Assembly: GCA_027577595.1 (NCBI GenBank)
Contig: JANBRJ010000007.1
Location: 186,001 to 250,000 of the forward strand
Reading direction: 5' to 3'
Length of the DNA stretch: 64,000 nucleotides
DNA from: Coemansia sp. RSA 487
Taxonomy: Eukaryota > Kickxellomycota > Kickxellomycetes > Kickxellales > Kickxellaceae
Positions 1 to 64,000 of this stretch are shown here, piece by piece. Every line of letters starts with the position of its first letter. Within the stretch, counting starts at the first letter, position 1. The position numbers and the translations under genes are program-made. The notes below the pieces were generated by a model. It saw nothing but the letters and a program-made list of their open reading frames with translations. It did no database searches and had not been told where the DNA came from.

Positions 1-1380
1 GCGCTTTTCGTTTTGGCTCTCAGAGAGCTCCAAACGACGGTTCTTATCCGATATAATCCTTTTCTGCTCCTTGTTTTCAGTCAAGAGCCCGTTAATATAC
101 TTTTGAGTTTCGTTGTCTCTCGCGGAATAGTGAGACGGGGAGAGAGCGTCTGGCACATGATGGTTCATGTCGTGCAGTGGGCTGCTGGGGCTCGCAGGCA
201 CAACACGATGGGAAGGCGAGCCAGTTGGAGGTGTTCTGGATTTGTTGCGCATGTGCTGGCGAAGAACCTTGCGGTCAACATAAGGCGTGGAAATCCCGCC
301 AAATTCCTATTACAATATAAAAAGCGCACAGAACAAACAAGACATATGACAAGTAGCATACTTGCATTGCATTAGCTTGAAAAACAAGGATGATAGTGAA
401 AATAGTGGCAATAGCCCGACACAGAGGCTGGATCTCGGACAATGGTTGCGATATGAGTAAAAAAAACAATGGCGGATAGTGGTAAAGATAGAGCGTTGAA
501 GCTAGCTTTTTTCCTTTCCATTACTTGGATGGCTTATTTTTCCAGAGAGGATTGCGCTCCTGCATACCTTAAAGAGAAATCCATCCAAATAAGTAAAACA
601 AGCGAATGTTGTGCCAAGCGCAAAAGACAACAAGCAAAAACAAAAAAGTCAAGTATGAAAACAAAATGCGCACAAGAGGGGGTAGTTCAATAAGAAAATG
701 CACAAAAAACTTACCGTGTCAGAAACAAACTGGTGGTCCGAATACTCCTGTTTATCGCCAGCAGCAGTGGTGTAAGAAAACCCATTAGTTTCAACAGCCA
801 TCCTGTCGTTGGTTTTGCGCTGTGGATTAAGGCCGACTTTCTCGGCATATGACGTTAATGAGTCTAAAAGTTGCGGCTGGACGGTGTTTGCTCTCGCATC
901 ATACTCCTCGTTAGTCATTGCGGCCATATTCCTGTTCCGCAGCTTGATACCTTCGGCTGTAGATGTCATAGGGTTCTTTCTGGATAGTGGTGTGTGTGCG
1001 CGGCGACGTGCGTCCAGGCCCGTTGGCTGGATGCCCAGGCGTGGTTTTGCGATAGTGTCAGGCACTAGCTGGAGCTCTGCAGCATTCTCGCTGTTTACAC
1101 CGTTGTTTCTCATCATAGTACTCATCTGAGTCTTCATCTGCGTTCTCTCGTAAAAGCTTTCGGCAAACCCATTTACAAGCTTGTCGAGAATATCAACAGC
1201 ACTCATGTAGTCTATAGTACCTTCTCCTGAAAGATGCATCAGGATTTGCTTATAAACGTTCTCTTTCATAAGTTCGATATCAGGAGTATCGCGAGCTTCA
1301 TCAATCCACTTAAGCAACGTCTCGTATGATATCCCCCCATCTTCCGGGATAGTTGTTATGTGGCTCATCAATCTCTCCAT
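1..1380 (-). CDS. Unidentified coiled-coil protein, partial at left edge, two exons visible
   Basis: I do not recognise this gene. Exon 1 runs 1380-715 and exon 2 runs 306 to the window edge, still open. The start at 1380 is chosen because its context is ACCATGG; an in-frame ATG at 1422 is less favoured. Exon 1 ends in ACG followed by a GTAAGT donor at 714. The acceptor ATAG ends at 307, so the 408-bp intron is phase 0 and the frame continues as SDT|EFGGISTPYVDRK. About 324 residues are visible. The first 90 are helical and charged (MSHITTIPEDGGISYETLLK...), the middle is low complexity, and after the intron there is a Ser/Pro-rich stretch. It then becomes a Lys/Glu-rich probable coiled coil (QKYINGLLTENKEQKRII). 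The splice is an inference from the frame and consensus sites. It is divergent from BMS1. Confidence 0.6.
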
Positions 1381-2325
1381 GGTGAAACTGAAGCAGAGAC
1401 GCTCAAATGATAGAGGATTCAAACAAGGTAAAAGTATGTGAGAAAGAGAGAAAGACGAGTAAGCTGTAACGCTGGCCCTTATAAGGTCTCGTCGCCCCCT
1501 TTAGTATGCAAGAATAACAAAAAGGAGGGAAAGATCCTAGCTATGAGGAAGAAAATATAATAAATAAATAAATGGTTTCGAGGGAAGAAAAGGACAAGTA
1601 AAAGAATAGCCCTGCAAAAGCCCCTCTTCCATCGAAAAAGGAAAACAAAATAAAAGTAAAGTACCAGTGCGCATGCATCAACAGTGCAGAATGAAGCTGC
1701 AGCTTGTCCTCTCATTTTCTTTTGAAAATTTAGCTGCTTCTGACTGGCTTCGACATCAGTTCGCGCTTTTTATCACACCACCTTTTCAAGTTTGCCAAAC
1801 TCGTGGTACAAGCTCTATTCCACTATTCCATTACTAGCTGTTCTTTTTCGTTTCATTTTTGCCAACTCTTCTGTGCTGGTAAAACAACGCGTTACAAAGC
1901 TTGCATGATTGGTTGAAGATCTGCCCATAGGAGAAATAAAGCGCATTGCCACATTAGCATTTCTGGAATGGGATGATCAGGAATTGATATGATATTTAAG
2001 ATTTACTTATCAAATCACCGAATCTTTGCTTTTTTTTGCAACTTTTGCTACCTCAACAAAAAAAAAATTATATCCAGCCATTATGTTTGGTGCCAAACGC
2101 AACGAACGGCCCTTGCTTTCTCTTCTATCCAACATCCCTTTTCTGTTCCGAACGCATCTTTTATATTACTATTGATCTGCACAGCTGGCCAGAGCGGTGT
2201 CGCACAATTCACCATTTAATTTCGATACGTTAGTTTCGATAGCGTTAGCAAATACACACAGACACGAAGAGAGGGAGAAAGAGCTCAAGTGTTAATATAA
2301 CACGCAGCACTCTGAAGGAGCGACT
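1381..2325. promoter_or_regulatory. Divergent intergenic region before BMS1
   Basis: This 945-bp stretch separates two divergently transcribed genes and must hold both promoters. It is AT-rich with A/T homopolymer runs. No open frame here has recognisable protein features, and I see no repeat or RNA gene. Confidence 0.4.
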
Positions 2326-5300
2326 ATGGACGCAAAGCAAACACACAAGGCGCATCGGGTGCGCAAAGCTGGAGCCAGAGCCAACAAGAAGCAGCAAAAG
2401 AACAAAAATGCCGAAAAGAACAACCCCAAGGCGTTCACCATGCAGTCGGCGCAAAAGGCAGAGCGCATGGCGCGGCGGAAAGCTGAACTAAACGAGAAGA
2501 AATTCCATGTACCAATGGTGAACCGCACGCCCACGATCCCGCCACCAATTGTCGTTGCAGTGGTCGGCCCACCGCAGTGCGGCAAGACAACGCTGATCAA
2601 ATCGCTAGTGCGCAGGTACACCAAGAGCACGTTGTCCGAAATACGAGGCCCCGTCACTGTTGTCAGCGGCAAGAACCAACGACTGACATTCATAGAGTGC
2701 GTGAACGACACTAACACGATGGCAGATGTGGCCAAGGTGGCAGATCTTGTGGTCCTGGTGATAGACGCCAGCTACGGGTTTGAGATGGAGACGTTTGAGT
2801 TTCTGAACTTGCTCCAAACGCACGGGATGCCAAAGGTCATGGGAGTTCTGACTCACCTTGACGGATTTAGGGACAACAAGCGTCTAAAGACGGTCAAGGG
2901 CAACTTTAAGCACCGCTTCTGGACCGAGGTGTACGATGGTGCCAAGCTGTTTTACCTCTCGGGCATCGAGAACGGCCGATACCTGGACAGGGAGGTCATG
3001 AACTTTTCGCGCTTTATTTCAGTCATGAAGCTACGGCCGCTGGCGTGGCGCAACTCGCACCCGTACATGCTGGCGGATCGAGTGCAAGATCTTACAGACC
3101 CGGAGGTGCTTGAAAACAACCCCAAGGCCAACCGCACCGTTGCAATGTACGGGTACTTGCGCGGAACGCATATCAAGGGCAAGGACCGTGTGCACATCCC
3201 CGGAGCTGGTGATTACCAGCTGAACGATACAGAGCTGCTAGCCGATCCGTGCCCGATCCCCGACAAAGAGCGCAAGCGACTCGACGAGCGGCACAAGCTG
3301 ATATATGCACCAATGTCCGAGGTCAATGGTGTTATGTACGACAAGGATGCTGTGTACATTGACGTCAAAAAGAGCCACCATGAGGAGAATGCGGAGGAGG
3401 GCGAGGGCGAGCGGATGCTCAGCGAGCTGCAGAAAGTGAACGCTATTGCCGACCGCTTGGCAAGCCAGGAGTTCAGTCTTTTCTCGGGCGCTAAGCCGGT
3501 CACTGCGGAGAATGTGCGCCGTCCGGCTCTCTTTGACGATGCATCCGGGTCAGAGGACAACAGTGGCAGCGAGGATGGCTCTGACGACGAGTCTGATGAC
3601 AGCGCGTCCGAGGGCGAGCCAGAGGAAACTGAGTCGGCTGAGGGGAGCAGTGGCGAGGAATCGGACGGGGCAGAAAGCGATTCTGATGACGAGATTCTGC
3701 GTCGCGTTGGTTCTGACAATGATTCCGATAATGATAGCAGTGGTGGCTCGGCAGACGAGCTGAGCGACGATACGTTGCGCCTCAGCCCAATCCACGGACT
3801 TTCGAAGCGTGCCAACCTGATGGACCTGGTGTATGGCTCGGCAACCGGTGCAGGAACAACGCCAATGTACAAGATTAAGGACACCGACGACAGCATCAAG
3901 TCATTGGCATTTAAGGATGATCTCGATCTGCATGCAATCCACAAGCTTTTTATCACTGGTACGGGAGATAGCGATAGTGAAAACGGCAGTGATGCTGAGC
4001 AGAACGAGGATGACACACTGGGTGACTTTGAAGACCTTGAAGCCGAAGATGGCGGTGATGAAAGCTCTACGGAGAAGGGCAACAGCGGCAGCGATGATGA
4101 GAGGAAGGACGAGGACGAGGACGAGAATAGGTTTGGCCTGCCAGCTGACAAGATGAAGAAGCTGAAAAAGAAGTTTGACAAGATCGATAACTCTGACGCG
4201 GACGACGAAGAGAAGAAAGACTTTTACCAGCAGCAAAAGGAGCAATTGCAGCAGTACGTGGACAACACGCGGCTGGAGATGGCCGAGCTCGCAGACATCA
4301 ACTACCGGTGGTCGGGCGAGTATATCAAAGTTGTCATCGAGAATATGCCCTGCGAGTTCATGGAGGGGTTCAACCCTGCGCTTCCGGTCATCGTTGGCGG
4401 AATCCCCAACGAGGAGGGGCTGTCGCTGATCAGTGTCCGCATCAAGCGCCACCGCTGGTACCCGAAGATTCTCAAGACTGGCGACCCAATCGTCGTGTCC
4501 GTTGGCTGGCGCCGGTTCCAGACCATCCCCACGTACTTTATGAACGACCGCATCAAGAACCGCATGCTCAAGTACACGCCCGAGCACATGCACTGTAGCG
4601 CGGCGATCTACGGGCCATACATCCCGCCGGGCACTGGTTTCTGTGCATACTATCTCACGAAGAAACGGAGCTTTGGCATTGCTGCCACAGGAACGGTGCT
4701 GGAGAATAGCCAGTCGATTGATGTCGAGAAGAAGCTCAAGCTGACGGGCTATCCAGAGAAGATCCACAGGAACACTGCGTACATCAAAAAGATGTTTAAC
4801 TCCGCGCTGGAAGTGTCGCGGTTTGAAGGCGCTGCAATCAAGACCGTCAGCGGCATCCGCGGCCAGGTCAAGAAGGCGGCTGGAAACACCGGTATGTTCC
4901 GTGCGACGTTTGAGGACAAGGTCAAGATCAGCGACATTGTGTTCCTGCGTGCATTCTACAAGATCCCGATCAAGCAGTTCTACAACCCGATCACCTCGCT
5001 GCTGTCGGTGACGTACATGCGGACCATTGCCGAGATCCGCAGATCCAAGAATGTGCCTGTGCCGAACAACGTCGACTCGCACTACAAGCCCATCAAGCGC
5101 GAGGTCAAGCGCTTCAACCCGCTGCAGGTCCCCAAGGCCCTCCAGGCCGAGCTACCGTTCAAGTCCAAGCCCAAGCTCATCAAGACCAATGCGCCCACCA
5201 AGCGTGCTGTGATCATGGACAAAAAGGACAAGCAGGTGGCCACTCTCTTCAACGAGATCAACCTCCTGAGCAAGGACAAGGCAAAGAAGCAGAAGGAAAA

Positions 5301-6339: not shown

Positions 6340-6488
6340 AACTAAAGTTTCTTTATCTTTGTTACAATAAACCATGGCCTTTTTATAGCCATCCAAACAT
6401 TTATCAAAACACGCTTAAATAATTAGGAGGTATATATCGTATGCTTTCTAACAATATGATTGACTCAATGCGAGTCAATCATATTGTT
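6340..6488 (-). repeat. Hairpin-TATA module, copy 1
   Basis: Read on the minus strand, the order is hairpin, AGCATACGATATAT, about 40 bp of spacer, GGCTATAAAA, then an A-rich leader. The same order and similar words occur at 61255-61376 upstream of the Fanzor gene (AGCATATGATATAT, GGCTATAAAA). Here the module faces the truncated FunK1 gene. The decayed Fanzor copy starts immediately on the hairpin side, in the opposite direction. Confidence 0.6.
6450..6488. repeat. Perfect inverted repeat (17-bp arms, 5-nt loop)
   Basis: The arms are AACAATATGATTGACTC and GAGTCAATCATATTGTT with loop AATGC. The core CAATATGATTG recurs in the hairpin at 61341-61375. Fanzor homology begins directly after this structure, so it marks an element boundary. 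Confidence 0.85.
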
Positions 6489-8748
6489 GGGCACAGGGAC
6501 ACGCGCTATAAAACGTCCCCTAAAATCTCTGGTGAATGACAGAAATAGCATTACCAAAGCAAACGACTATGTTGTAGTGGCCAACACAGCCTCTTCACAC
6601 ATATATGGGCTAGCTTGTTGGATATTTGTCCATGAGCTGGCTACTCACAAGCAGTTCGATCCCTCTGTGTACCTGGAAAAGAGGTTTTTTGGTGAGGTAT
6701 TCCTGCACCTCACCAAGCGGAAAGCCAGGCCGAATGTCAAGGCTGAAGTCCAGGAGCATAAGAGGACCATACGCAAGCAACTGGGCGCGTATAAGGAGGC
6801 TACTGGCATCACAGAGTTTGATATGGCCAACCCAAAACAAACAGCACAGTTCGAGGCAGCAAGAATTTACACTGCATATGTGGATAATATACAGACCAGG
6901 TTTGGTCATTATCTTCGGCCTGTAGTAACTGCTCTGCTGAAAACTCGGGAGCGCAAGAGGGACCTTGAGGAGGCAATGAAGGGCAGAACAACGGATGAGG
7001 TAAAAAAAAAGCGTATAAAGACCGAATTTGGAAACCTGGGCTGGAGTTGAAAGAGGCGGATAAAACACCGAAACACTGTTCTTCCAGTTATCACTGTGGG
7101 TGACAAGAACATCAGGGACATTCTTGAACCTGTGTTGACAGCATACGACAACGACCACAAGTTTGAGAAAGGCCTTTATTAAGATATAAAGGCGCATCCA
7201 AAAAAAGCACTTCAAAGAATTCTATTGTTTGGCAGTGTTTCTTGTCCAACGACAGCAAATCTTTCCAGTGTTTCCCGTTGCGGAAGTCGTTTGTGCCAAT
7301 GCACATCGAGATTGGCAACATGGTATTATGTCGAAGCATAATGGACTGGAACTATAACGCGAAGTCTCCTATCGAAAACTATTGGTATAGGCTGTTCAAT
7401 GAACAGTCAAGGGTACTACGGACAAGAAACGGCTTCGGGTTGTATGGCACGATACAAACCGATGGTATGTCGGTGTCTGTGATCAAAAAGACTGCAAAGG
7501 CCAAAGCAAAAAGCAGCTGGAAAGCGAGGAAGAGAGATACTGAAGCGAATGCTGCCATTGAGGCCAGCGGAACTGGGCCAGATGCCCCAGTCGAGAGCGC
7601 AGCTACTGACTCACTGCCAGAGAACCAGCCCAAGAAGCCCAAGAAGCGAGAAAAGCCAGGAGAAAAGAAGCCGGGTGAGTTCACATATATCCACCAGCTT
7701 TCACCAGAGCAGTTGGCCAACATGAAACCCCCAATTTTCATGGATCCGGCTCGCCAGGACATTGTCTTCGGCATGACGGATGAGAGCACCTCTGAGGAGA
7801 AAGCTCTTTTCCGATACACACGGAGCCAGAAGGCTAAAGAGACCTGGACAACCCGCTACCGCAAGCTGAGGGAAAAGGTCAAGAACGAGCATCCAGACAG
7901 CAACGAAATCAAGGCAGCCGAGGCTAGATTGGCTGCTTTTTTGTGCACATCGATATTGCCAGATAAATATGAGCAATATGTTAGGACGCATGCTGCTGTT
8001 TAGCCAGTGCTGAGTAAATTCTACACAAACGCAATGACCACCAGCAAGAATGGGAACAACCCCAGCCGATTCATCGCAAGCTTCGGCAATCCGCCCACAT
8101 CAAGCAGCAACAAGCCGATGAGCAGCTAGCAAAGAGCATTCGGGCGACATGCGACGATGAAAACCCCACTGCGATCTTAGGTAACTGGAGTACGCCAATG
8201 GCTCGCTACCATGAGCCTATACGGGGGTCGGATTTCGGCGAACGCTGAGGAAGAAAGGGTGCCAAGTTTATCGTATTGACGAATTCAGAACACCAAAGAC
8301 TTGCCCGAACTGCCTCACCAGCGCTCTTGAGAAGTTTCTGAAAGTGCCCAACCCCCGCCCCTACCAACGCAAGAAGATGAAAGAAGTGCTCTGCCACGGC
8401 CTCCTGAAGTGCACCAACGAACTATAATGTATGGGTCCCGTGTAAGTGGATGGTGTTTTGAATCCTTGTTCTTGCATGTACAACCGAGATCGCGCAACTG
8501 TTCTCAGTTTCAGACATATTTTCCATGACCTTCGCGATCACGGCAAGACTCCAGAGCGCTTCTGTCGCAGTCAGCCTGCTGCTGCTGCTACCACCGATGA
8601 ACAGTAGCCCCTAAGAAGAAAGAGAAGACGGCAAGAACGAACAAATAACAACTACCACGAAACTCAGCCAAGGTTATAGCCGCGACAAACCCTAGTTCCA
8701 GGAATCCTAGTTCTAGGATAGGATGCTGATGCTGTCCCTTTTGCAGCA
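6489..8748 (+). pseudogene. Decayed Fanzor (TnpB-like nuclease) copy
   Basis: This is a degenerate copy of the Fanzor gene at 60954-58752, recognisable along nearly its whole length. Examples are NDRNSITKANDYVVVANTAS at the N-terminus, a long open stretch at about 7245-8000 with EQLANMKPPIFMDPARQDIV and a RuvC-I aspartate, then DEFRTPKTCPNCL (first half of the zinc ribbon). It lacks the first ~10 codons of the other copy. It carries several disruptions, including in-frame stops near 7047, 7180 and 8000, frame changes near 7010 and 8030-8280, and a two-base gain before the second zinc cysteine pair. It keeps CAA where the 58.7-61.4 kb copy has a stop after PNPRPY. The 3' flank matches that copy up to TTTTGCAGCA at 8748, which sets the right boundary. 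The AT-rich 5' side is replaced by the FunK1-linked hairpin. Confidence 0.75.
8685..8722 (+). repeat. Fanzor 3'-end double stem-loop, copy 1
   Basis: Contains the perfect palindrome ATCCTAGTTCTAGGAT (7-bp arms, 2-nt loop), preceded by a second imperfect CCTAG...CCAGG stem. The aligned region of the other copy (about 58676-58715) also has two CTAG-centred stems. Conservation and position near the element end suggest a structured RNA or terminal recognition site, by analogy with TnpB/Fanzor guide-RNA regions. That role is an inference. Confidence 0.5.
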
Positions 8749-14611: not shown

Positions 14612-14790
14612 TTGTGTGGATAAATTGTTGAATTTTATAAATAGACAATATTAGAAGGAAAAAATAGCACGGTTGCGAGAAAGGAAGAAAGAAAAAAGCC
14701 TCAACCGAAAAGGCGTCTGGGGAGAAAAATGAGAGTTGGTGCCATGCCACAACGGCATTAAAAACCATTGATGTAATCATGCATGGTATG

Positions 14791-14990
14791 GTGTTTTGCA
14801 AAGCTAATTGCGTCGAATAAGAAATGTATACACGTCGAATGGTCAAAGGTTTGCGGTAGCAACAATGTATTTTGCGTTCCAAGCAAAAGTCGTTTGCACA
14901 GGCGTAGCAAGTCGTTTGCATCGGTTGGCGTGGCATATGCGTCAGTGCAAAACAGGAAAACTCACAAGAGAAAACACAAATGACTAGTGC
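14791..14990 (-). repeat. Dispersed repeat, copy A
   Basis: On the minus strand this matches copy C at 55717-55896 over most of its length, for example the shared run TGACGCATATGCCACGCCAA and later CGCAATTAG. Relative to copy C it has a local duplication of about 22 bp around GCAAACGACT. It lies inverted with respect to copy B, 260 bp away. No coding capacity. Confidence 0.8.
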
Positions 14991-15252
14991 TGGCACTGAT
15001 ATGGCCAGGCCGTTGAATGCTTCATAGACCTTTCTTGATGGCTGCCGGCACTGCAGCTGGGTTCTTGTTCAAGATAGTCGTGGTATTTCTTCAGATTGTT
15101 GAGTTTTGTTGGGATCAATGTTAACTAGCCGCACTGAAAGAACAGACAGAGACCGAGAAGCCAATCCATTTTAGCGTGAAATAGTAGGCGTGCAGCGAAC
15201 AGCTTTCTCCACAAAGCTCAGCTTGCGCCTCTTGCTTCCAAGCCCAAACATA

Positions 15253-15377
15253 ACGCCAGCTGACGCAAACGACTTTTTCTTGGATCGCAAAGTGCGTCAT
15301 TGCCACTGCAAATCTTTGACCATTCAACGCGTATACATCCTTCTTATTCGACGCAATTAGTTTTGTACAGCACAGCA
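15253..15377 (+). repeat. Dispersed repeat, copy B
   Basis: It shares GACGCAAACGACTTTTTC, CATTGCCACTGCAAA, GTATACAT, and CGCAATTAGTTTTG.ACAGCACAGCA with copy C. It is in plus orientation, making an inverted pair with copy A. Its 5' part is shorter or more diverged than copies A and C. Confidence 0.8.
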
Positions 15378-16768
15378 TGTTGAGGCCAGATGGCGCCAAT
15401 ACGGATGAGACAGCATGCATTAGTTACCAAAGCGCATGTGTATGTGTTATGTGCATGTGCGGAGAACGAAAATGATTACGTCGTTTCGCAAATCATTAAC
15501 ACTCCATTTTTGTCTGTGCAGTCATACGACATGTGTTGTACACGTCACGTCACAATGAGTCCTTACCATATCTGTTTGCAGAGGTCGCATGAGATGAAAG
15601 ATGGAGCACAAACTGTAAAGACTGGTAAAGAATTGGGACAGTTGTGACTTAAAGTTTGCTTTTTTGCGTGTGGGAATTATCAGCTTGATTAACAGACATC
15701 TTTCCATGTAAATGCTTCCAGATCAGCTGGCTCACATGGTTGGAATTTGATAAAGGATGAAAGGCAGTTTAATGGTCTGGATAATCTTTGTCTTTCGGCT
15801 CTGCACCCGACCCTTTGGTCTACAATGAACACACACGTGGTGCACGCTTGCTCCGGGCCAAAAAAAAAAAAAAGCAAAACAGAAACAGTATGCACAAACA
15901 AGCTATGATAAGCATCTGCCATTTTGCTTCTCTGCTTTGATAAAAAAAAAGCGGCCATCACCACTGCACAAGGAATGTTTAGTGTGGCCGATCGGGTATC
16001 TGTTTCCAGATGGGCAAGCGCAAGGGCCTGGACACTCAAGATAGGGGCAGAAATTGACTTACAGGGATCGTCCAGAGCCCGTCTGTATTCTGGCATGTGC
16101 AGAAATGCGCGTTACACACGCCGCCGAAAACCAAAGTGAGAACAGGCCCCATCCTCTGCACACACGTGCAGGCAAAATGCAGCATTTCGCTTCCGCCGAT
16201 GTTTTCCAACACTTCCATGCATGACGCAAAGGGCGCAGCGAAGAGAGCGGACGACGTTTTGCAACCACACCATCGCACAAGAGTTGTGTGACCGAAAGAA
16301 AAGCATGAGGTGCTGACGTGAGCGCAAAATGGCCGAATCCATGTTGAAAAAACCTGGATCAGCTTTGGCAATTCGAGAAAACCCTTTTTGGAAAAATTCC
16401 ACCAAACACCCTGTTATCCACCCTCCCCTCCTCCTTTCCCCCTTTAATTTTTCTCCACTTTATTTGCTTGGTTTCCCCCGCAAAAAGTCCACCACAGTTT
16501 GCTTTCTTATTTGCTAATCTTCATTCACAAGCGAAAGCACCTTTTCTTTCTTCCGTTCTTCGTAAATACAAAAACGCTTACTGTTCTTTTTTCAAGTGCA
16601 TACATCTTTTTACGCAACGCGGTGCTTGCCTTCCAAACTACTCCTGTTCTTTCTCTTTCTCATCCCCCACACAACCCCCAGTGCTTGCAACACAGTCGTC
16701 GACAACGCAGTAACAGGCACAACGCCGTTGGCGCGTCGTTAATACCAACCACACCACAAAAAATATCA

Positions 16769-55445: not shown

Positions 55446-56712
55446 TAAAGGTGTGTAAATAACAAGTAGATGGTATTGAAGTGGGCAAGTGCTAGAAAAG
55501 TGGCGAGGATGATGAGCCCATGGCTCACACGTTTTGTACACAAAGAGGCTTTCATATATGCATTGTTCTGCTTTTTGGGATAGCACCATTCGTATTTTGG
55601 GCTGTCAAGGTGGCAGGCGTATGAAGTCTGACCTCATTTTGTGGCTACAGTTAAGAGAAAGCAGGTGCTCGAGTAAGAGCCGAGGAGATAAACATCTGTG
55701 ACTGCCTTTTGACGCTGGTACTAATCATTTGTGTTTTCTCTTGAGTTTTCCTGTTTTGCGCTGACGCATATGCCACGCCAACCGACGCAAACGACTTTTT
55801 CCTGGAATTCAAAACGCATTATTGCCACTGCAAACCTTTCGCCATTCGATACGTATACATACTTATTCGGCGCAATTAGTTTTGGACAGCACAGCAAGCA
55901 ACGATCTCAGTTAATTGTAAACAAGCTGGAAAACAATAAGAAATCAGCACACCTGGAATATGCTGCAATAGCTGGAGGTGTTGGACTGATCAGCTCCTGT
56001 AAAAATCTTGCAAGCCCACCCATGTGCTGATGAGATTATCTGTCTGTTTTAGATGGAAGGCTCGGGATTGTTGTGCAGTTGATGGGGATGAGCAATTAAA
56101 GTCAAATATCACCATCCAAGATGTCTCTTCTAGTCTTCCTTTTTTTTTTACAAAGTTGTAGATATATGAGACATATCCATTGCGACAGAGAAAGAGATCC
56201 CAGAAAAAAAGCTTGTCGATATCTCTTACTCTCTATGTATAAAGGTTTGGATGTGAGTTTATTTTGTCTCGCTGATTTCTACTTTCTGCTTCTTCGTGCA
56301 TTTTTGGACAACAAAGCTTACACAACAGCTGCCTGATTTTTCCACACCTCTCCACAAATCCTTTTTTTGTGTAAAACCCTCTTTCCTTTCCTGCCAGCCT
56401 TTTTTCTGCAACTTTACTCTTTCGACTTTTTTTATAGCTTTGCAAATTTCTTGCTCATATATTTGCTGGTATTTCTTCGCCCTTCTTTTTATCCATTCTT
56501 TGCCTTTACAGGATTTTGGTTTCTTTCTGTAATTTTTTGTGCAGACACTCTTTGCCTAGTCGCCCAAGACCTAATTACCGAGCAAAAGTCACAGTATATT
56601 TCCGTGAGTGACCGAGCCTACTGCTATTTTATTTCCTGTACTTTTCGTTGGAATATACTATCTCCTCTTCTCTGGTCCTCCTATATACTAAAGAGAGCTA
56701 TCCCACCACCAA
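55446..56712. other. Gene-free region with dispersed repeat and C/T-rich CaMK promoter
   Basis: 1.27 kb. It holds repeat copy C (55717-55896). From 56120 to 56700 it is strongly T- and C/T-rich, as before several other genes in this window. No coding recognised. Confidence 0.4.
55717..55896 (+). repeat. Dispersed repeat, copy C
   Basis: Matches copy A (minus strand, 14791-14990) from ATCATTTGTGTTTTCTCTTG through CGCAATTAG, and copy B over its 3' two thirds, ending at TTTTGGACAGCACAGCA. No coding; a single, unpaired copy here. Confidence 0.8.
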
Positions 56713-58507: not shown

Positions 58508-58675
58508 TTTTCAAGCTTCTTGTCTGCTATATTATAAAAGTGTGTATATGATCAGTAATAGTAGTCAAAAATTAGCAAAAGAAATGTAAAGTGGACAAGA
58601 TAATCGAAAACTGCGAGTCCTCCCTCTGTTTCCGCTGATAAATAAGGAGAGGGACAATGCTGCAAAAGGGACAGC

Positions 58676-58715
58676 ATCCTATCCTAGAACTATGGTTCCT
58701 AGAGCTAGGATTTGC
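58676..58715 (-). repeat. Fanzor 3'-end double stem-loop, copy 2
   Basis: On the minus strand, TCCTAGCTCTAGGA is followed by TAGTTCTAGGATAGG. The region aligns base for base with the copy-1 region, with several changes that keep CTAG-centred pairing. It is a candidate structured end or guide-RNA scaffold (inference). Confidence 0.5.
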
Positions 58716-58751
58716 CGCGGCTATAACCTTGGCTGAATTTCGTGGTGGTTG

Positions 58752-60954
58752 TTATTTGTTCGTCCTTGCCGTCTTTTTTGTCGCTGTTGTCTTCCTTTTC
58801 TTCTTGGGCTGCTGTTCATCGGTGGTAGCAACGGCAGCAGGCTGACTGCGACAGAAGCGCTCTGGTGTCTTGCCGTGATCGCGAAGGCCATGGAAAATAT
58901 GCCTGAAGTTGAGAACAGCTGCGAGATCTCGGTTGTACATACGAGAATGAGGAGCCAAAACACCATCCACTTCCACGGGACCCATACATAGTTCGTTGGT
59001 GCACTTAAGGAGACCGTGACAGGATTTCTTTCATCTTCTTACGCTAGTAGGGGCGGGGGTTGGGCACTTTCAGGAACTTCCTGAGAGTGCCAGTGAGGCA
59101 GTTTGGGCAAGTCTTTGATGTTCTGAATTCGTCGATAAGATAGACTTGGCACCCTTTCTTCCTCAGCATTCGCCGAAATCCGACCCCCCGTATAGGCTCA
59201 TGGTAGCGAGCCATTGGCGCACTCCAGTTGCCTAAGATCACAGTGGGGTTTTCATCGTCGCATGTCACCCGAATACTCTTTGCTAGCTGCTCATCGGCTT
59301 GTTGCTGCTTGATGTGGGCGGATTGCCGAAGCTTGCGATGAATTGGCTGAGGGCTGTTCCCATTCTTGCTGGTAGTCATGGTGTTTGTGTAGAATTTACT
59401 CAGCACTGGCCAAACAGCAGCACGCGTCCTGACATATTGCTCATATTTACCTGGAAATATCGATGTGCACGAAAAAGCAGCCAATCTAGTCTCGGCTGTC
59501 TTGATTTCGTTGCTGTCTGGGTGTTCTTTCTTGACCTTTTCCCTCAGCTTGCGGTAGTGGGTTGTCCGGGTTTCTTTAGCCTTCTGGCTCCGTGTGTATC
59601 GGAAAAGAGCCTTCTCCTCAGAGGTGCTCTCATCTGTCATGCCAAAGACAATGTCCTGGCGACCCGGATCCATGAAAATTGGGGGTTTCATGTTGGCCAG
59701 CTGCTTTGGCGAAAGCTCGTGGATATATGTGAACTCACCCGACTTCTTTTCTCCTGGTCTTTCTCGCTTCTTGGGCTTCTTGGGCCTTTTGGGCTGGTCC
59801 TCTGGCGGTGAGCCAGTAGCCATGCTCTCAACTGGAGCCGTCTGTCCACTTCCGCTGGTCTCAATGGCAGCATTTGCTTCAATGTCCCTTTTCTTCGCTT
59901 TCCAGCTGCTTTTTTCTTTGGCCGTTGCAGTCTTTTTGATCACAGACACCGACACATCATCGGTTTGTATCATGCCATAGGATCTGAAGCCGTTTCTTGC
60001 CCATAGTACCCTCGATTTTTCGTTGAGAAATCTATACCAATAGCTTTCAATGGGAGATTTTGTGTTATAGCTCCAGCCCATTATGCTTTTACATAATACA
60101 GTGGTGTCAATTTCGATGTGCATTGGCACAAACGACTTCCGCAGCGGGAAACACTGGAAATATCTGTAGTTGTTGGTCTCAAGAAGCACTGCCAAGTAGC
60201 AGAATACTTTGAAGTGCTTTTTTGGATGAGCCTTGATATCATAATAAATGCCTTCCTCCTCAAACTCGTAGTCGTTGTCGTATGCTGTCAACACAGATTC
60301 AAGCATGTCCCTGGTGTTCTTGTCGCCCACAGTGATAACTGGAAGAACAGTGTTGCGGTGCTTTATCGCCTCTTTTAACTCCAGCCCAGGTTTCCAAATT
60401 TGGTCTTTATATGCTTCCTTTATCTCATCCGTTGTCCTGTCCTTCATTGCTTCCTCAATTGCCCTCTTGCGCTCCCGAGTTTTCAGTAGAACATTTACTG
60501 CACGCCGAAGATACTGACCAAACTTGGTCTGTATATTATTCACGTATGCAGTGTAAATTCTTGCTGCCTCGAACTGTGCTGTCTGGTTTGGGTTGGCTAT
60601 ATCAAACTCTGTGATGCCAGTAGCCTCCTTGTACGCATCCAGGTGCTTGCGTATGACCTTCCTGTACTCCTGGATTTCAGCCTTGACATTCAGCCTGGCT
60701 TTCCTCTTGGTGAGGTGCAGGAATACCTCACCAAAAAACCTCTTTTCCAGGTACACAGAGGGATCGAACTGCTTGTGAGCAGCCAGCTCATGGACAAATA
60801 TCCAACGGGCTAGCCCATACATGTGTGCAGAGGCTGTGTTGGCCACTACAACATAGTCGTTTACTTTGGTAATGTCATTTCTGTCATTCACCAGATATTT
60901 TAGGGGACACTTTATAACGTGTGTCCCTGTATCTGATGTATCCTCATTGTCCAT
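58752..60954 (-). CDS. Fanzor RNA-guided nuclease (TnpB-like), C-terminal lesions
   Basis: The frame from MDNEDTSDTGTHVIK runs 636 residues to a stop at 59044, right after NPRPY. The remaining zinc-ribbon half and RuvC-III continue in another frame (MGPVEVDGVLAPHSRMYNRD, LAAVLNFRHI) to 58752. Visible motifs: RuvC-I PPIFMDPGRQDIVFG (Asp near 427), VILGNWS, DEFRTSKTCPNCL with the first zinc cysteine pair near 616, a second pair CTNELC in the other frame, and RuvC-III YNRDLAAVLN. This order, with Glu in DEFxTSKxC, fits Fanzor/TnpB nucleases, which cut DNA guided by an RNA from the element. A stop codon (CAA in the other copy) and a two-base loss shortly after it separate RuvC-III. The copy is therefore probably inactive unless bypassed. 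I see no splice pair that removes the stop. A start at 60975 is possible. Confidence 0.75.
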
Positions 60955-61254
60955 TGCAGATGGGCGAGCAAACAAGAGCGGATAACTAATATAATATATA
61001 CGTTGAAAGGCGTATTTGGTGTTAATAGTAGAAACAAAATGTCAAAGGAAAGCCGAGAAACAAAAGGGAAAAGGAAAAACAAACGCCCTTTGGTCGTTAT
61101 ATAGCATTGGTTGACGTTGAGTTATCGATGTCACGCTGCCTTTCCTAATCAGGCACACATTCTCTTTTCGTTCTTTAGCTTGCTTGGGAACACTTGTGAT
61201 ACTGATATAGCACTTTTCACAAGAATATCAAGAGAGCAGATAAAAGTAAAATCC

Positions 61255-61376
61255 CTTGTCTTTATTTTCATACACAGCCTGGGTTTTATAGCCATACGAA
61301 CACTACAACAATTGAAATAGATATATCATATGCTTCCCATCAATATGATTGTCTCTTGTCAGAACAATCATATTGC
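61255..61376 (-). promoter_or_regulatory. Hairpin-TATA module, copy 2
   Basis: On the minus strand it reads hairpin, AGCATATGATATAT, about 30 bp, then ATGGCTATAAAAC. The hairpin arms are ACAATCATATTG and CAATATGATTGT (12 bp, 11-nt loop; 61341-61375). It parallels 6340-6488. A second TATA-like word, GCTATATAACG, at about 61093-61104 is closer to the Fanzor ATG and may be the working one. Confidence 0.55.
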
Positions 61377-64000
61377 GATAGCGGCTTATGTGATAACGAT
61401 TAGGCGCACAAATTGCGAGCCATCATCATTATCAGAACGCTTTGACGGCTGTAAAAGCTAACCTTTTGTTCGGGGTAAAAACGAAGAGTAACTTTAGTCC
61501 TGTTTTGAAAAATGCTAACAATCTTTATGAAACTTGGTAGCACCGCCGACTTTTATACTATCATAGTTTAACTCAAATCGCTTCCTCTAATGTTGGATTA
61601 TTTAGTGGTTATTGTTCTGTTGTGTTGGTTGCTGCAATGTGTATGATAATGGTGACTATTGAAACTACAAGTTCGTTGTCGGCCACAGAGATCAACTACG
61701 TTTTTAAATTGTTCGGGGTCGAGAAGAGTCTATGGGTGTCGTTTGCGTTGATGAAAGTTCCGATGGATATGCGATCAGAGTACGAGAATTATAGTGCGCC
61801 TTGAATGGTCACGAGATTCTGGCGTGGAGTTCATTGGGTGAGTTTCTAGTCACGCTATATTGCGACGCGATCCATCGGTTGGACGCTGGTATTTGAATTT
61901 ATCAGATGAAGCCGCCGACGAATTCGGCCGAGTTTGAAACCTTCCTTGAGGAATATAAGATCCTATGCAAACGCGGCGTATACGATATCGGACAGGGGAT
62001 TGCAACAGATATCTCCACTGCGAAGCTTCCGATCAAGCTTTGTAATCGGTTCATTGCTGAAGCAGAGGCTAATACAGCGTATAAGTTCGATGTAGTTGTG
62101 TCAAAGGCTAGGAGCTTCTTCGCAGCCGAAAAATCAATGCAGCAGGAGCCAGCTAAAATCGATGCAGTGATGCCAGCTACGCCTCGTTGTAATCTGAACA
62201 ACTGGCCGAAAGTTGTGAGGACTGATAAGCCCTCGGTTGTGCCACGTAATATAGCGTTGATCGAAACAAGTCCGTTGAATGGGGCGCCTGCAAAAATCCT
62301 ACCTGCGGAGCAATTGTGTATTGACGACATGGCTAACGAGATCCTGGTTCACATGTTGGTGGATGGCGGGTCGCAGATAACTATTGCCGATGAGGAGATT
62401 TGTAAGAAGTCGAAAAGAAAGTTGTATGATTTGGACGCGTCGATACCAACTGTTTTGGCAGATGGCACACACTGTCATGACTGTACAAAGTATTACATAT
62501 TACCTATTCATTTCGGTGGCAATTTGCACATTAATACTTATTGTTTGGTGATGCCAGCGATGGTTGATATCCTACTCGGTAACAACCGGCTGAAAGAGCA
62601 CAAGAGCGTTTTCCATTGCGAGGAGGACATTGTGTTTATTGCTGAAAGATATAAGCTTTGGAAAATCTCGGGAACAGTGGTTCAGGCCGCGTCAGTTGCA
62701 GAGAACGCGATCAAACTGATTACAGCCAACGCAGTGGCAAAGTTAATAGAAGATGGCGATGTCGACTCGATGGGCTGGGTTTGCGTGAGATTTCCCGAGG
62801 ACAGTTTGAAGTCTCAATTGTCTGTTGCAGCACTGGCGACGAGTCAGGAAGACCAGCTGGCGACGCTGTGCTCAAGGTATAAGCAGGTACTTGAGTAGCC
62901 ACCAGTCAGTCGACCTGTGCCTTGGCGGTCCTGAAATGGACATCCACCTGACAGAGGGGTCTGAACCGGTCGCCAGAGCGCCGTATCGTTTGTCACATGC
63001 AGAGATGGCCGAGATGGAGAAGCATATAGGCGAATTGCTAAAGAGAGGTTACATTTGCACGCCTACGTCGCCTTGGGCTGCTCTGGTGCTATTTGTGCGC
63101 AAGAATGATGGTACGCTGCGCATGTGCGTTGATTATTGCGGCTTGAAAAGTATATGATTAAGGATGCGTTTCCAATGCCACTTATTGATGGCTTGGTTGA
63201 TGAGACACATGGCGTGCAGATGTTTTCGAAGCCCGATCTTGTTCAGTCATATAACCAGGTGCGTATTCGTCATGAGGACATTCCGAAGACGGGTTTCCAA
63301 ACGAAATTGGGATTGTACGAGTACACAATTGTGCGGTTTGGGCTGGCCAATACACCAGCGGTGTTCCAGCGAGTGATGAGCCATGCACCACGCGATTTGA
63401 TTGGCAAGTGTTGCATCGTGTATTTGGATGGTATTCTGATTTACTCAAGGAATGCTGAAGAACACACGAAGCATTTGGATGCAGTACTCCAGCATTTGTA
63501 GGAGAACAATCTACGTACGAAGCCGGAGAAATGCGAGTTTTTCAAGAATTCGATCGAGCTCTTGGGTTATGTGATCACGAAGGACGGCTTGAGAACAGAT
63601 CCAGGCAAAGTGGCAGCGGTTAAAAATTGGCGTGTGTCCGAATTGTTTACTGATGTTCGGGCTTTCCTCGGTCTTAGTGGCTATTATCATCGTTTTGTCA
63701 AAGACTGGTCGTGGATTGCTATGCCACTGACGAATTTGCTGGCGACGAAGGAATTTGTTTGGAATGACGAAGCAGAATCGGCATTTGATAAGCTGAAGGA
63801 ACGGCTGTCGTCTGCACCGATTATCAAGCAGTTTGATCCGAAACGAGCGATCCGTGTTGAAACACCCCATTTTACTTTGAACCAAAGCTCCTCAATGGGA
63901 TTTAGAAAGAGTGAGTGTGGAGGCAGATATAGGCGCTTGTATTGTCTGTTTTCTATTAGGTCTCGAATGGCTAATGACGTGTGGATTGGAGCATTGTCCA
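61377..64000 (+). mobile_element. Ty3/gypsy LTR retrotransposon fossil, partial at right edge
   Basis: A broken element of the Ty3/gypsy family. In order: a gag-like region (about 61620-62300); a retropepsin-like protease segment with LVDGGSQITIAD (about 62340-62650); reverse transcriptase (about 62900-63500) with RMCVDYCGLK, PDLVQSYNQVRI and a YLDGILIYS catalytic motif; then the connection/RNase H start (about 63500-63900). It has a handful of breaks and continues beyond the window. The left LTR is not identified; the first 240 bp may be LTR or leader. Amino-acid signatures are still clear, so it is probably not very ancient. Confidence 0.85.

Follow-up and report, generated by a model that had tools for sequence, protein, structure and literature searches.

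The window, a 64,000-nt stretch of the Coemansia sp. RSA 487 genome (C7:186001-250000, in an assembly of 17.8 Mb and 184 contigs), carries near its downstream end a copy of a Fanzor1 gene. Fanzors are eukaryotic relatives of the CRISPR nucleases, related to TnpB. Alignment to related copies in the same assembly showed that this copy is a dead fossil of a Tc1/mariner-type element, and that in its family the Fanzor frame is under purifying selection and the neighbouring transposase and Ty3/gypsy frames are not. The contrast hints that Fanzor does something for the element on its own account. We give slightly better than an even chance to the combined reading that this is a dead copy from a family with a constrained Fanzor and an unconstrained transposase, which would be retained through its nuclease and mobilised in trans.

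Selection on Fanzor and its neighbours

The copies vary mainly by transitions (347 of the 372 informative Fanzor sites), more so in CpG, so that a plain ratio of nonsynonymous to synonymous rates (dN/dS) is biased; a transition-only test was therefore used. In each column the transition of the commonest codon was classed as synonymous, nonsynonymous or nonsense, and the frequency with which it was observed was then determined, CpG-able columns being kept apart. Across 20 Fanzor copies, 138/164 synonymous and 147/257 nonsynonymous transitions were observed in CpG-able columns (rate ratio 0.46, p = 5e-9), and 255/555 and 305/1151 in the other columns (ratio 0.50, p = 2.5e-15), as determined by Fisher tests that treat columns as independent. 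Shifted-frame controls gave ratios of 1.25-1.91. For transposase codons 1-240 (19 rows), the corresponding counts were 26/40 and 42/58 in CpG-able columns (ratio 1.23, p = 0.5) and 67/209 and 128/397 elsewhere (ratio 1.01, p = 1.0), with shifted frames at 0.74-1.12. The gypsy protease frame, read in 11 copies, gave ratios of 0.83 and 0.96, with shifted frames at 0.83-1.43.

Fanzor constraint was also seen in parts of the family. Ratios were 0.24 (p = 2e-12) and 0.62 (p = 5e-4) in five copies that share a replacement within the transposase, 0.42 and 0.52 in ten gypsy-bearing copies, and 0.30 and 0.59 in five gypsy-free copies. Stop codons private to one copy numbered 11, against ~31 expected from synonymous changes, and variants held by at least three copies were constrained (0.17-0.32). 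For the time since the copies parted, selection on Fanzor is clear; in the most recent changes it is weaker, which would be expected with many present copies dying. Pairwise dN/dS medians were 0.28 for Fanzor (190 pairs) and 0.73 for the transposase (117 pairs); owing to the transition bias, these values are not used as the headline result.

One row (L049) was dropped as the window copy again, and L032 was dropped from the transposase transition test as the same element as L053. L048 was left out of the site-incompatibility, linkage and variant-frequency analyses and kept in the pairwise dN/dS, tree, private-change and transition tests. Transposase row L054 is a contig-edge element whose Fanzor part was not read.

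The tree of the copies was star-like. Recombination was rejected as the cause, site incompatibility showing no steady rise with distance and linkage falling merely from 0.10 to 0.06. Recurrent mutation explains the tree better, because nearly all informative sites are transitions and linkage decays little. Gypsy-bearing copies were scattered over the tree (8 changes, no better than shuffled). It was also observed that CpG-biased transitions recur at identical sites across copies, which suggests a mutation process aimed at repeats or at methylated DNA; transitions common to several copies were ~2.7 times as frequent in CpG-able columns.

Identity of the protein

The 636-amino-acid (aa) product of the window copy matched Fanzor1 of Parasitella parasitica (PDB 9cf0, E = 2.4e-81), Spizellomyces punctatus (PDB 8gkh, E = 4.4e-28) and Guillardia theta (E = 0.0024) in a phmmer search of the PDB; beyond these three chains, no match was found up to E = 10. 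An intact sister copy (L033) matched the Parasitella protein at E = 1.8e-99 over residues 32-698 of 731 and the other two solved proteins at 1.4e-42 and 2.7e-5, with two additional PDB matches at 0.24 and 3.2. The Fanzor nature of the protein, proposed in a preliminary description made from the window sequence, is thereby borne out, and the protein is specifically a Fanzor1 by homology.

This assignment was made because of the homology to solved Fanzor1 proteins, and not because of the Pfam zinc-ribbon profile. The profile check suggested in that description gave a divided answer: the solved Fanzor1 chains were matched significantly, and the OrfB zinc-ribbon/TNB profile PF07282 stayed below its 26.3-bit cut-off for both the window product (21.1 bits) and L033 (18.4 bits). 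PF07282 gave no match at all to the 742-aa protein of a second subfamily, and an NCBIfam search gave no match for the Fanzor protein. A single-sequence structure model of the window protein (mean predicted local distance difference test score 34.7) was too poor for comparison of the REC, WED and RuvC parts. Although the weak profile scores and the failed model are what one might expect of some other zinc-ribbon/RuvC protein, the two strong matches of L033 refute that alternative, which we regard as barely conceivable.

The motifs agree with the homology. The D, E, zinc-ribbon and RD motifs were present in all five intact copies, as were a PKKKRK stretch and the glutamate of LIDEF[RK]TSK. The Bao-Jurka motif D-X(125,275)-[TS][TS]XX-C4-X(5,50)-RD was found in 5/5 intact copies, with X = 182; in the window copy its parts are split across two frames. 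The putative repositioned RuvC glutamate in DEFRTSKTCPNC is consistent with the alignment to the solved chains.

The window copy

The motif order described earlier was recovered: the 636-aa minus-strand frame (60954-59044) contains FMDPGRQDIVFG and DEFRTSKTCPNC, with the second Cys pair and YNRDLAAVLN coming after it in a different frame, at ~59030-58752. In this remainder the NRD Asp codon lies at 58926-58928 and a nuclear-signal-like PKKKRK stretch at 58791-58808. As had been noted, the protein is broken near its C-terminus only, by one TAG and then a frameshift, ahead of the last catalytic motif. The copy also lacks the right terminal repeat. Features of the window are collected in Table 1.

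Table 1. Features of the Fanzor1 family in the window
Feature	Position	Strand	Evidence or remark
Fanzor1-bearing Tc1/mariner-type element, window part	58660..64000	-	continues to ~64859 in contig C7 (L051 1-859); right end cut at 58660
Tc1/mariner-type DDE transposase remnant, frameshifted	63861..64000, rest to 64579 beyond the window	-	DDE_3, E 2.2e-16
Ty3/gypsy fragment (protease-like, reverse transcriptase, RNase H start), broken frames	61390..63861	+	RVT_1, E 2.8e-18
Palindrome with 12-nt arms, Fanzor 5' region	61341..61375	.	recognisable in most copies retaining the region
Fanzor1 frame, 636 aa, TAG-terminated	59044..60954	-	open reading frame; phmmer, PDB 9cf0, 8gkh
RuvC-I acidic motif DPGRQ	59656..59670	-	aligned with DPGRR, DPNKR of solved Fanzor1 proteins
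DEFRTSKTCPNC, putative repositioned glutamate and first zinc-ribbon Cys pair	59098..59133	-	aligned with DEFRTSSFCPKC, DEYKTSSVCPRC; PF07282 below cut-off
Fanzor1 C-terminal remainder, other frame	58752..59030	-	homologous to unbroken C-termini of L032, L033, L035, L037, L038
3' untranslated segment, putative guide-RNA (omega-RNA) scaffold, cut at TTTTGCAG	58660..58751	-	conservation, motif count
Second Fanzor1 copy, 5'-truncated, with frameshifts and stops, ending at TTTTGCAG	6493..8746	+	homology arms, alignment
Ghost element retaining the family's left and right ends but neither a Fanzor nor a transposase domain	14790..15380	-	alignment
Solo right-end fragment of the family	55663..55884	+	start lies a few bases at most from where the two Fanzor copies break off

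Structure of the full element

The element was mapped by alignment to 19 sister loci, one of them the second copy in the window. It had been taken to span 58658-61376 as a solitary element lacking a transposase, and neither part of that view held. Homology runs on to ~64859, ~859 bases past the window end, giving a length of ~6.2 kb. At the other side, homology with 16 of the 19 sister loci ends at 58660-58697 (the remaining three end at contig edges), and 58660 is the true edge of the window copy; 61376 is merely the outer edge of the palindrome, near the join with the gypsy fragment. Read in the direction of Fanzor, the element begins with a left terminal repeat, which lies outside the window in L051, and continues with the DDE transposase remnant, the opposite-strand Ty3/gypsy fragment, Fanzor1 and the 3' segment. 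Because the DDE_3/IS630-type remnant (Pfam, E = 2.2e-16) and the inverted terminal repeats belong to the Fanzor-bearing element, the description as lacking a transposase is refuted for this family.

Further searches characterised the transposase. A second profile search gave E = 3.5e-19 for DDE_3. A homologue on contig C19 matched the NCBIfam IS630 profile at E = 6.3e-17 (62 bits, below the curated cut-off of 100), covering profile positions 102-278 of 299 with the N-terminal part unmatched, and matched the Sleeping Beauty transposase in the PDB at E = 0.0018. In the gypsy fragment, RT_RNaseH_2 (3.4e-6) and a gag-asp protease profile (0.0038) were matched below cut-off. Sister copies extend to a right terminal repeat, with matches of up to ~118 nt; the repeat was found at both ends in 8 of the 19 sister loci and only at the left end of the window copy. 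The dinucleotides flanking 26 ends were TA (13), TG (12) and CA (1).

Sequence from the gypsy element replaces the end of the transposase in 11 of the 20 aligned copies, including the window copy. Four copies are truncated before this region, and five (L031, L037, L039, L042, L050) have no gypsy fragment; four of the five keep a common C-terminal transposase tail there and L042 its start only. A Fanzor borne by the retroelement was rejected on the evidence of these five copies. Separately, L031, L037, L039, L045, L050 and the contig-edge locus L026 share one replacement inside the transposase. L045 carries both kinds of damage and L042 neither. Two sets of copies, each with its own shared transposase damage, are nonetheless multi-copy.

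Within the limits set by collapsed repeats, gaps and introns, no intact DDE_3 transposase was found in the whole assembly, the longest open frame among 51 DDE_3 matches being 317 aa. The best frame (298 aa, on C19) is missing the part that would match the N-terminal section of the IS630 profile; a search with this protein gave 128 matches in the assembly. Two frames near transposase matches were examined and rejected: at C28 (383 aa) the transposase is split over three frames, with 161 aa as the longest associated open stretch, and at C140 (338 aa) the only frame of at least 250 aa is Fanzor.

The 3' segment and the 5' region

Between-copy identity in the first 40-nt block after the stop codon was 0.93, equal to that of the coding part, and then fell to 0.87, 0.83 and 0.61-0.82. 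Compact folding at the start of the segment was predicted in two copies (z ~-3.5); among six single folds, three gave z of -3.5, -3.5 and -2.7, two of these from the same copy. From the RNA positions of other Fanzor1 systems, as given in PMC10432273 and PMC10711439, a guide-RNA scaffold may lie just after the stop codon. Both window copies end at an identical TTTTGCAG followed by CA, and the solo right end at 55663 begins within a few bases of this point. TTTTGCAG is similar to the outermost part of the terminal repeat (TTTTGCA...CAG, then CA or TA); it is therefore likely an internal look-alike end or the product of a microhomology deletion.

At the other side of the gene, four of five non-coding 40-nt blocks lying ~80-280 nt before the start codon (L033 2720-2920) were conserved at 0.93-0.955. 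These values match coding-part conservation, and the blocks are possibly a promoter.

Copies, subfamilies and ghosts

The genome search gave at least 79 Fanzor match pieces. The expectation that an intact sister copy might exist was fulfilled several times over, with at least five intact Fanzor genes in the assembly, open from Met to the end: L032 (733 aa), L033 (731), L035 (728), L037 (718) and L038 (719). Within the Fanzor part, the mean difference between copies is ~7-16% of bases, depending on the 200-column block.

A second subfamily (B) is 36% identical to the first. Seven of its copies are near full length: six are free of stops (86-100% identical to the reference), and the seventh (85%) carries a TAG. 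One more copy is truncated and has two TGA codons. The one subfamily B locus read (L055) has a complete Fanzor frame; inspection of 6 kb by eye showed no frame resembling a transposase, and DDE_3 had no match on the contig. On this one locus, the description as solitary and lacking a transposase fits subfamily B better than the window family; ~1 kb upstream of another subfamily B copy, on C54, there is a weak remnant that matches DDE_3 below cut-off. Subfamily B also seems to have ghosts of its own: 15 places match the L055 region (1000-4500) only up to query base 380-389, and three of these then carry the last 50-57 bp, as does a longer one on C90.

The 3' motif GATGCTGTCCCTTTTGCAG of the window family occurs at 89 genomic places (up to 2 mismatches), against 0 for a reversed control. 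By coordinates, and among the matches listed, a Fanzor match precedes 18 of these places and a remnant of the transposase 5' end precedes 16; 15 enter from a contig edge, and the remaining 40 show none of these. By this estimate, 56 of the 89 would be ghost-like, having no upstream Fanzor among the matches listed, although a C-terminal Fanzor piece does stand ahead of one or more of those 40 (C39:78089). Two ghost-like pieces in the window have no motif and are not among the 89.

Around the Fanzor N-terminus (L033 positions 2706-3479), exact tracts of 200-481 nt are shared among L040, L041, L043, L045, L047 and L035, copies 86-90% identical elsewhere. Four pairs have such tracts, against a maximum of 164 in 20 shuffles; they reflect gene conversion or assembler collapse. 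Contigs ending inside Fanzor copies include C7, C20, C24, C47, C66, C92, C108, C167 and C170, with N-terminal Fanzor pieces at the edges of some and 3' motifs near the start of others. The assembly may therefore lack young copies that are nearly identical.

Explanations for the selection contrast

From the homology, the anatomy and the selection contrast, we infer the following course of events. Intact copies would make Fanzor, a nuclear RNA-guided DNA nuclease, with an RNA scaffold from the element's own 3' end and a guide from the right end or flank. Fanzor would cut sites without the element, and repair would copy the element back, so that retention would act in cis, as proposed for TnpB. 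The terminal repeats would be acted on in trans by a DDE transposase supplied elsewhere, and now lost or missing from the assembly. Several observations weigh against this account. Covariation lends no support to the putative 3' RNA structure (both sides changed in 1 of 32 pairs), and the other three single folds gave z of only -1.2 to -1.6, with the weakest value in the window copy. A TA target-site duplication is not clean, because TA stands at only 13/26 ends. Variants confined to one or two copies lie closer to neutrality (0.61 and 0.65), and private changes gave 0.65 overall and 0.35-2.14 per copy, with p < 0.05 in 7 of the 20 copies; since recent variants are nearer neutral, the selection may in large part be older than the present copies. 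An intact transposase may also hide in unassembled repeats, gaps, collapsed repeats or behind introns. That Fanzor rather than the transposase keeps the family alive, as a homing-like selfish nuclease cutting empty sites with the transposase long dead, appears doubtful.

The weaker constraint on variants in one or two copies, set against 0.17-0.32 for those in at least three copies, would also suit an ordinary non-autonomous family in which Fanzor is a passenger, constrained in active source lineages and neutral after insertion, and a foreign transposase is the mover. The contrast would then arise from a transposase gene dead from the family's start, and even the best copy does lack the N-terminal part. 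However, a pure passenger would be unconstrained beside a dead transposase, yet the five replacement-sharing copies show ratios of 0.24-0.62, and five copies are fully open despite the base divergence among the copies. We keep this explanation as a tentative possibility. Constraint without a live transposase might instead reflect use by the host, with Fanzor copies serving the fungus, for example by controlling other mobile DNA through ghost-derived guides. The several intact genes in two subfamilies and the many ghost-like places, possible sources of guides, are in keeping with this; the copies are nevertheless many, dispersed and often broken, and in 13 of the 20 the private changes show no significant constraint, so that host use seems unlikely. 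It is very improbable that the constraint is a by-product of repeat mutation bias, through recurrent transitions, and codon composition. The excess of transitions, their frequency in CpG-able columns and the slight linkage decay would fit such a bias, but in the transition-only, CpG-split test with shifted frames and two neighbouring genes, a significant deficit was found only for in-frame Fanzor.

Comparison with known systems

Homology between L033 and Parasitella Fanzor1 (PDB 9cf0-9cf3; PMC11423790) falls in three stretches, with identical motif order, and residues ~988-1096 of the latter have no counterpart in L033. The RuvC insertion (FRI) of the Parasitella protein, PpFz1, binds cyclophilin and was found by its authors only in Parasitella and Rhizopus (PMC11423790); the stretch absent from the window family is presumably the FRI. 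RNA-guided activity of Fanzor1 has been reported (PMC10432273, PMC11423790).

Like the window family, the Tc/mariner elements PGv-1, PUl-1 and PUl-4 carry Fanzor1 together with a mariner-like transposase, enclosed by inverted repeats (Bao and Jurka 2013, PMC3627910); in the window family a TA flank stands at 13 of the 26 ends. The window family differs in that its transposase is decayed in the copies read, that a gypsy fragment lies between the genes in 11 of the 16 copies keeping the region, and that selection was measured separately for each gene. SPu-1/Spu-1 of Spizellomyces punctatus likewise has many full and partial Fanzor1 copies and ghosts (PMC3627910; Saito 2023, PMC10432273). Its authors found no transposase inside the Spu-1 repeats (PMC10432273), whereas the window family keeps a recognisable remnant, which serves as an internal neutral yardstick. 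CMe-1A is likewise an old non-autonomous family with some intact Fanzor1 frames, from which its authors argued function (PMC3627910); here the argument comes from counted changes set against those in two control genes.

Mariner elements with Fanzor1, ghost elements and old Fanzor families of the non-autonomous kind have already been published (PMC3627910, PMC10432273). The element type is known, and the measured selection contrast is the part worth following. In a literature search made largely without subscription journals, nothing was found that joins Fanzor with Kickxell- fungi, and for Fanzor with purifying selection the only paper concerns, judging by title and abstract, the transposase PGBD5. 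Little is said to be known of Fanzor function (PMC10711439), and genetic tests of its natural role for the carrier have been called for (PMC10432273). A neutral transposase beside a constrained Fanzor separates a helper of its own transposase from a protein useful by itself, and the role of Fanzor can be tested in this genome on 20 aligned copies, together with the ghosts and the second subfamily.

Other observations in the window

The second copy reported ~50 kb away was confirmed on the plus strand (~6493-8746), with eight matching arms of 109-512 nt that are 83-96% complementary. At 6420-6490 a ~50-nt piece of the element's 5' region (79-81%) stands inverted ahead of the palindrome of this copy, an arrangement like that of a fold-back. 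An Rfam search of the window at the gathering threshold gave one tRNA and nothing else. A neighbouring XPD/RAD3 protein had scores that fit a fungus and no finer placement: 1078 bits against a RAD3-named entry, which we take to be yeast, and 996 bits against the best XPD-only-named entry, presumably human.

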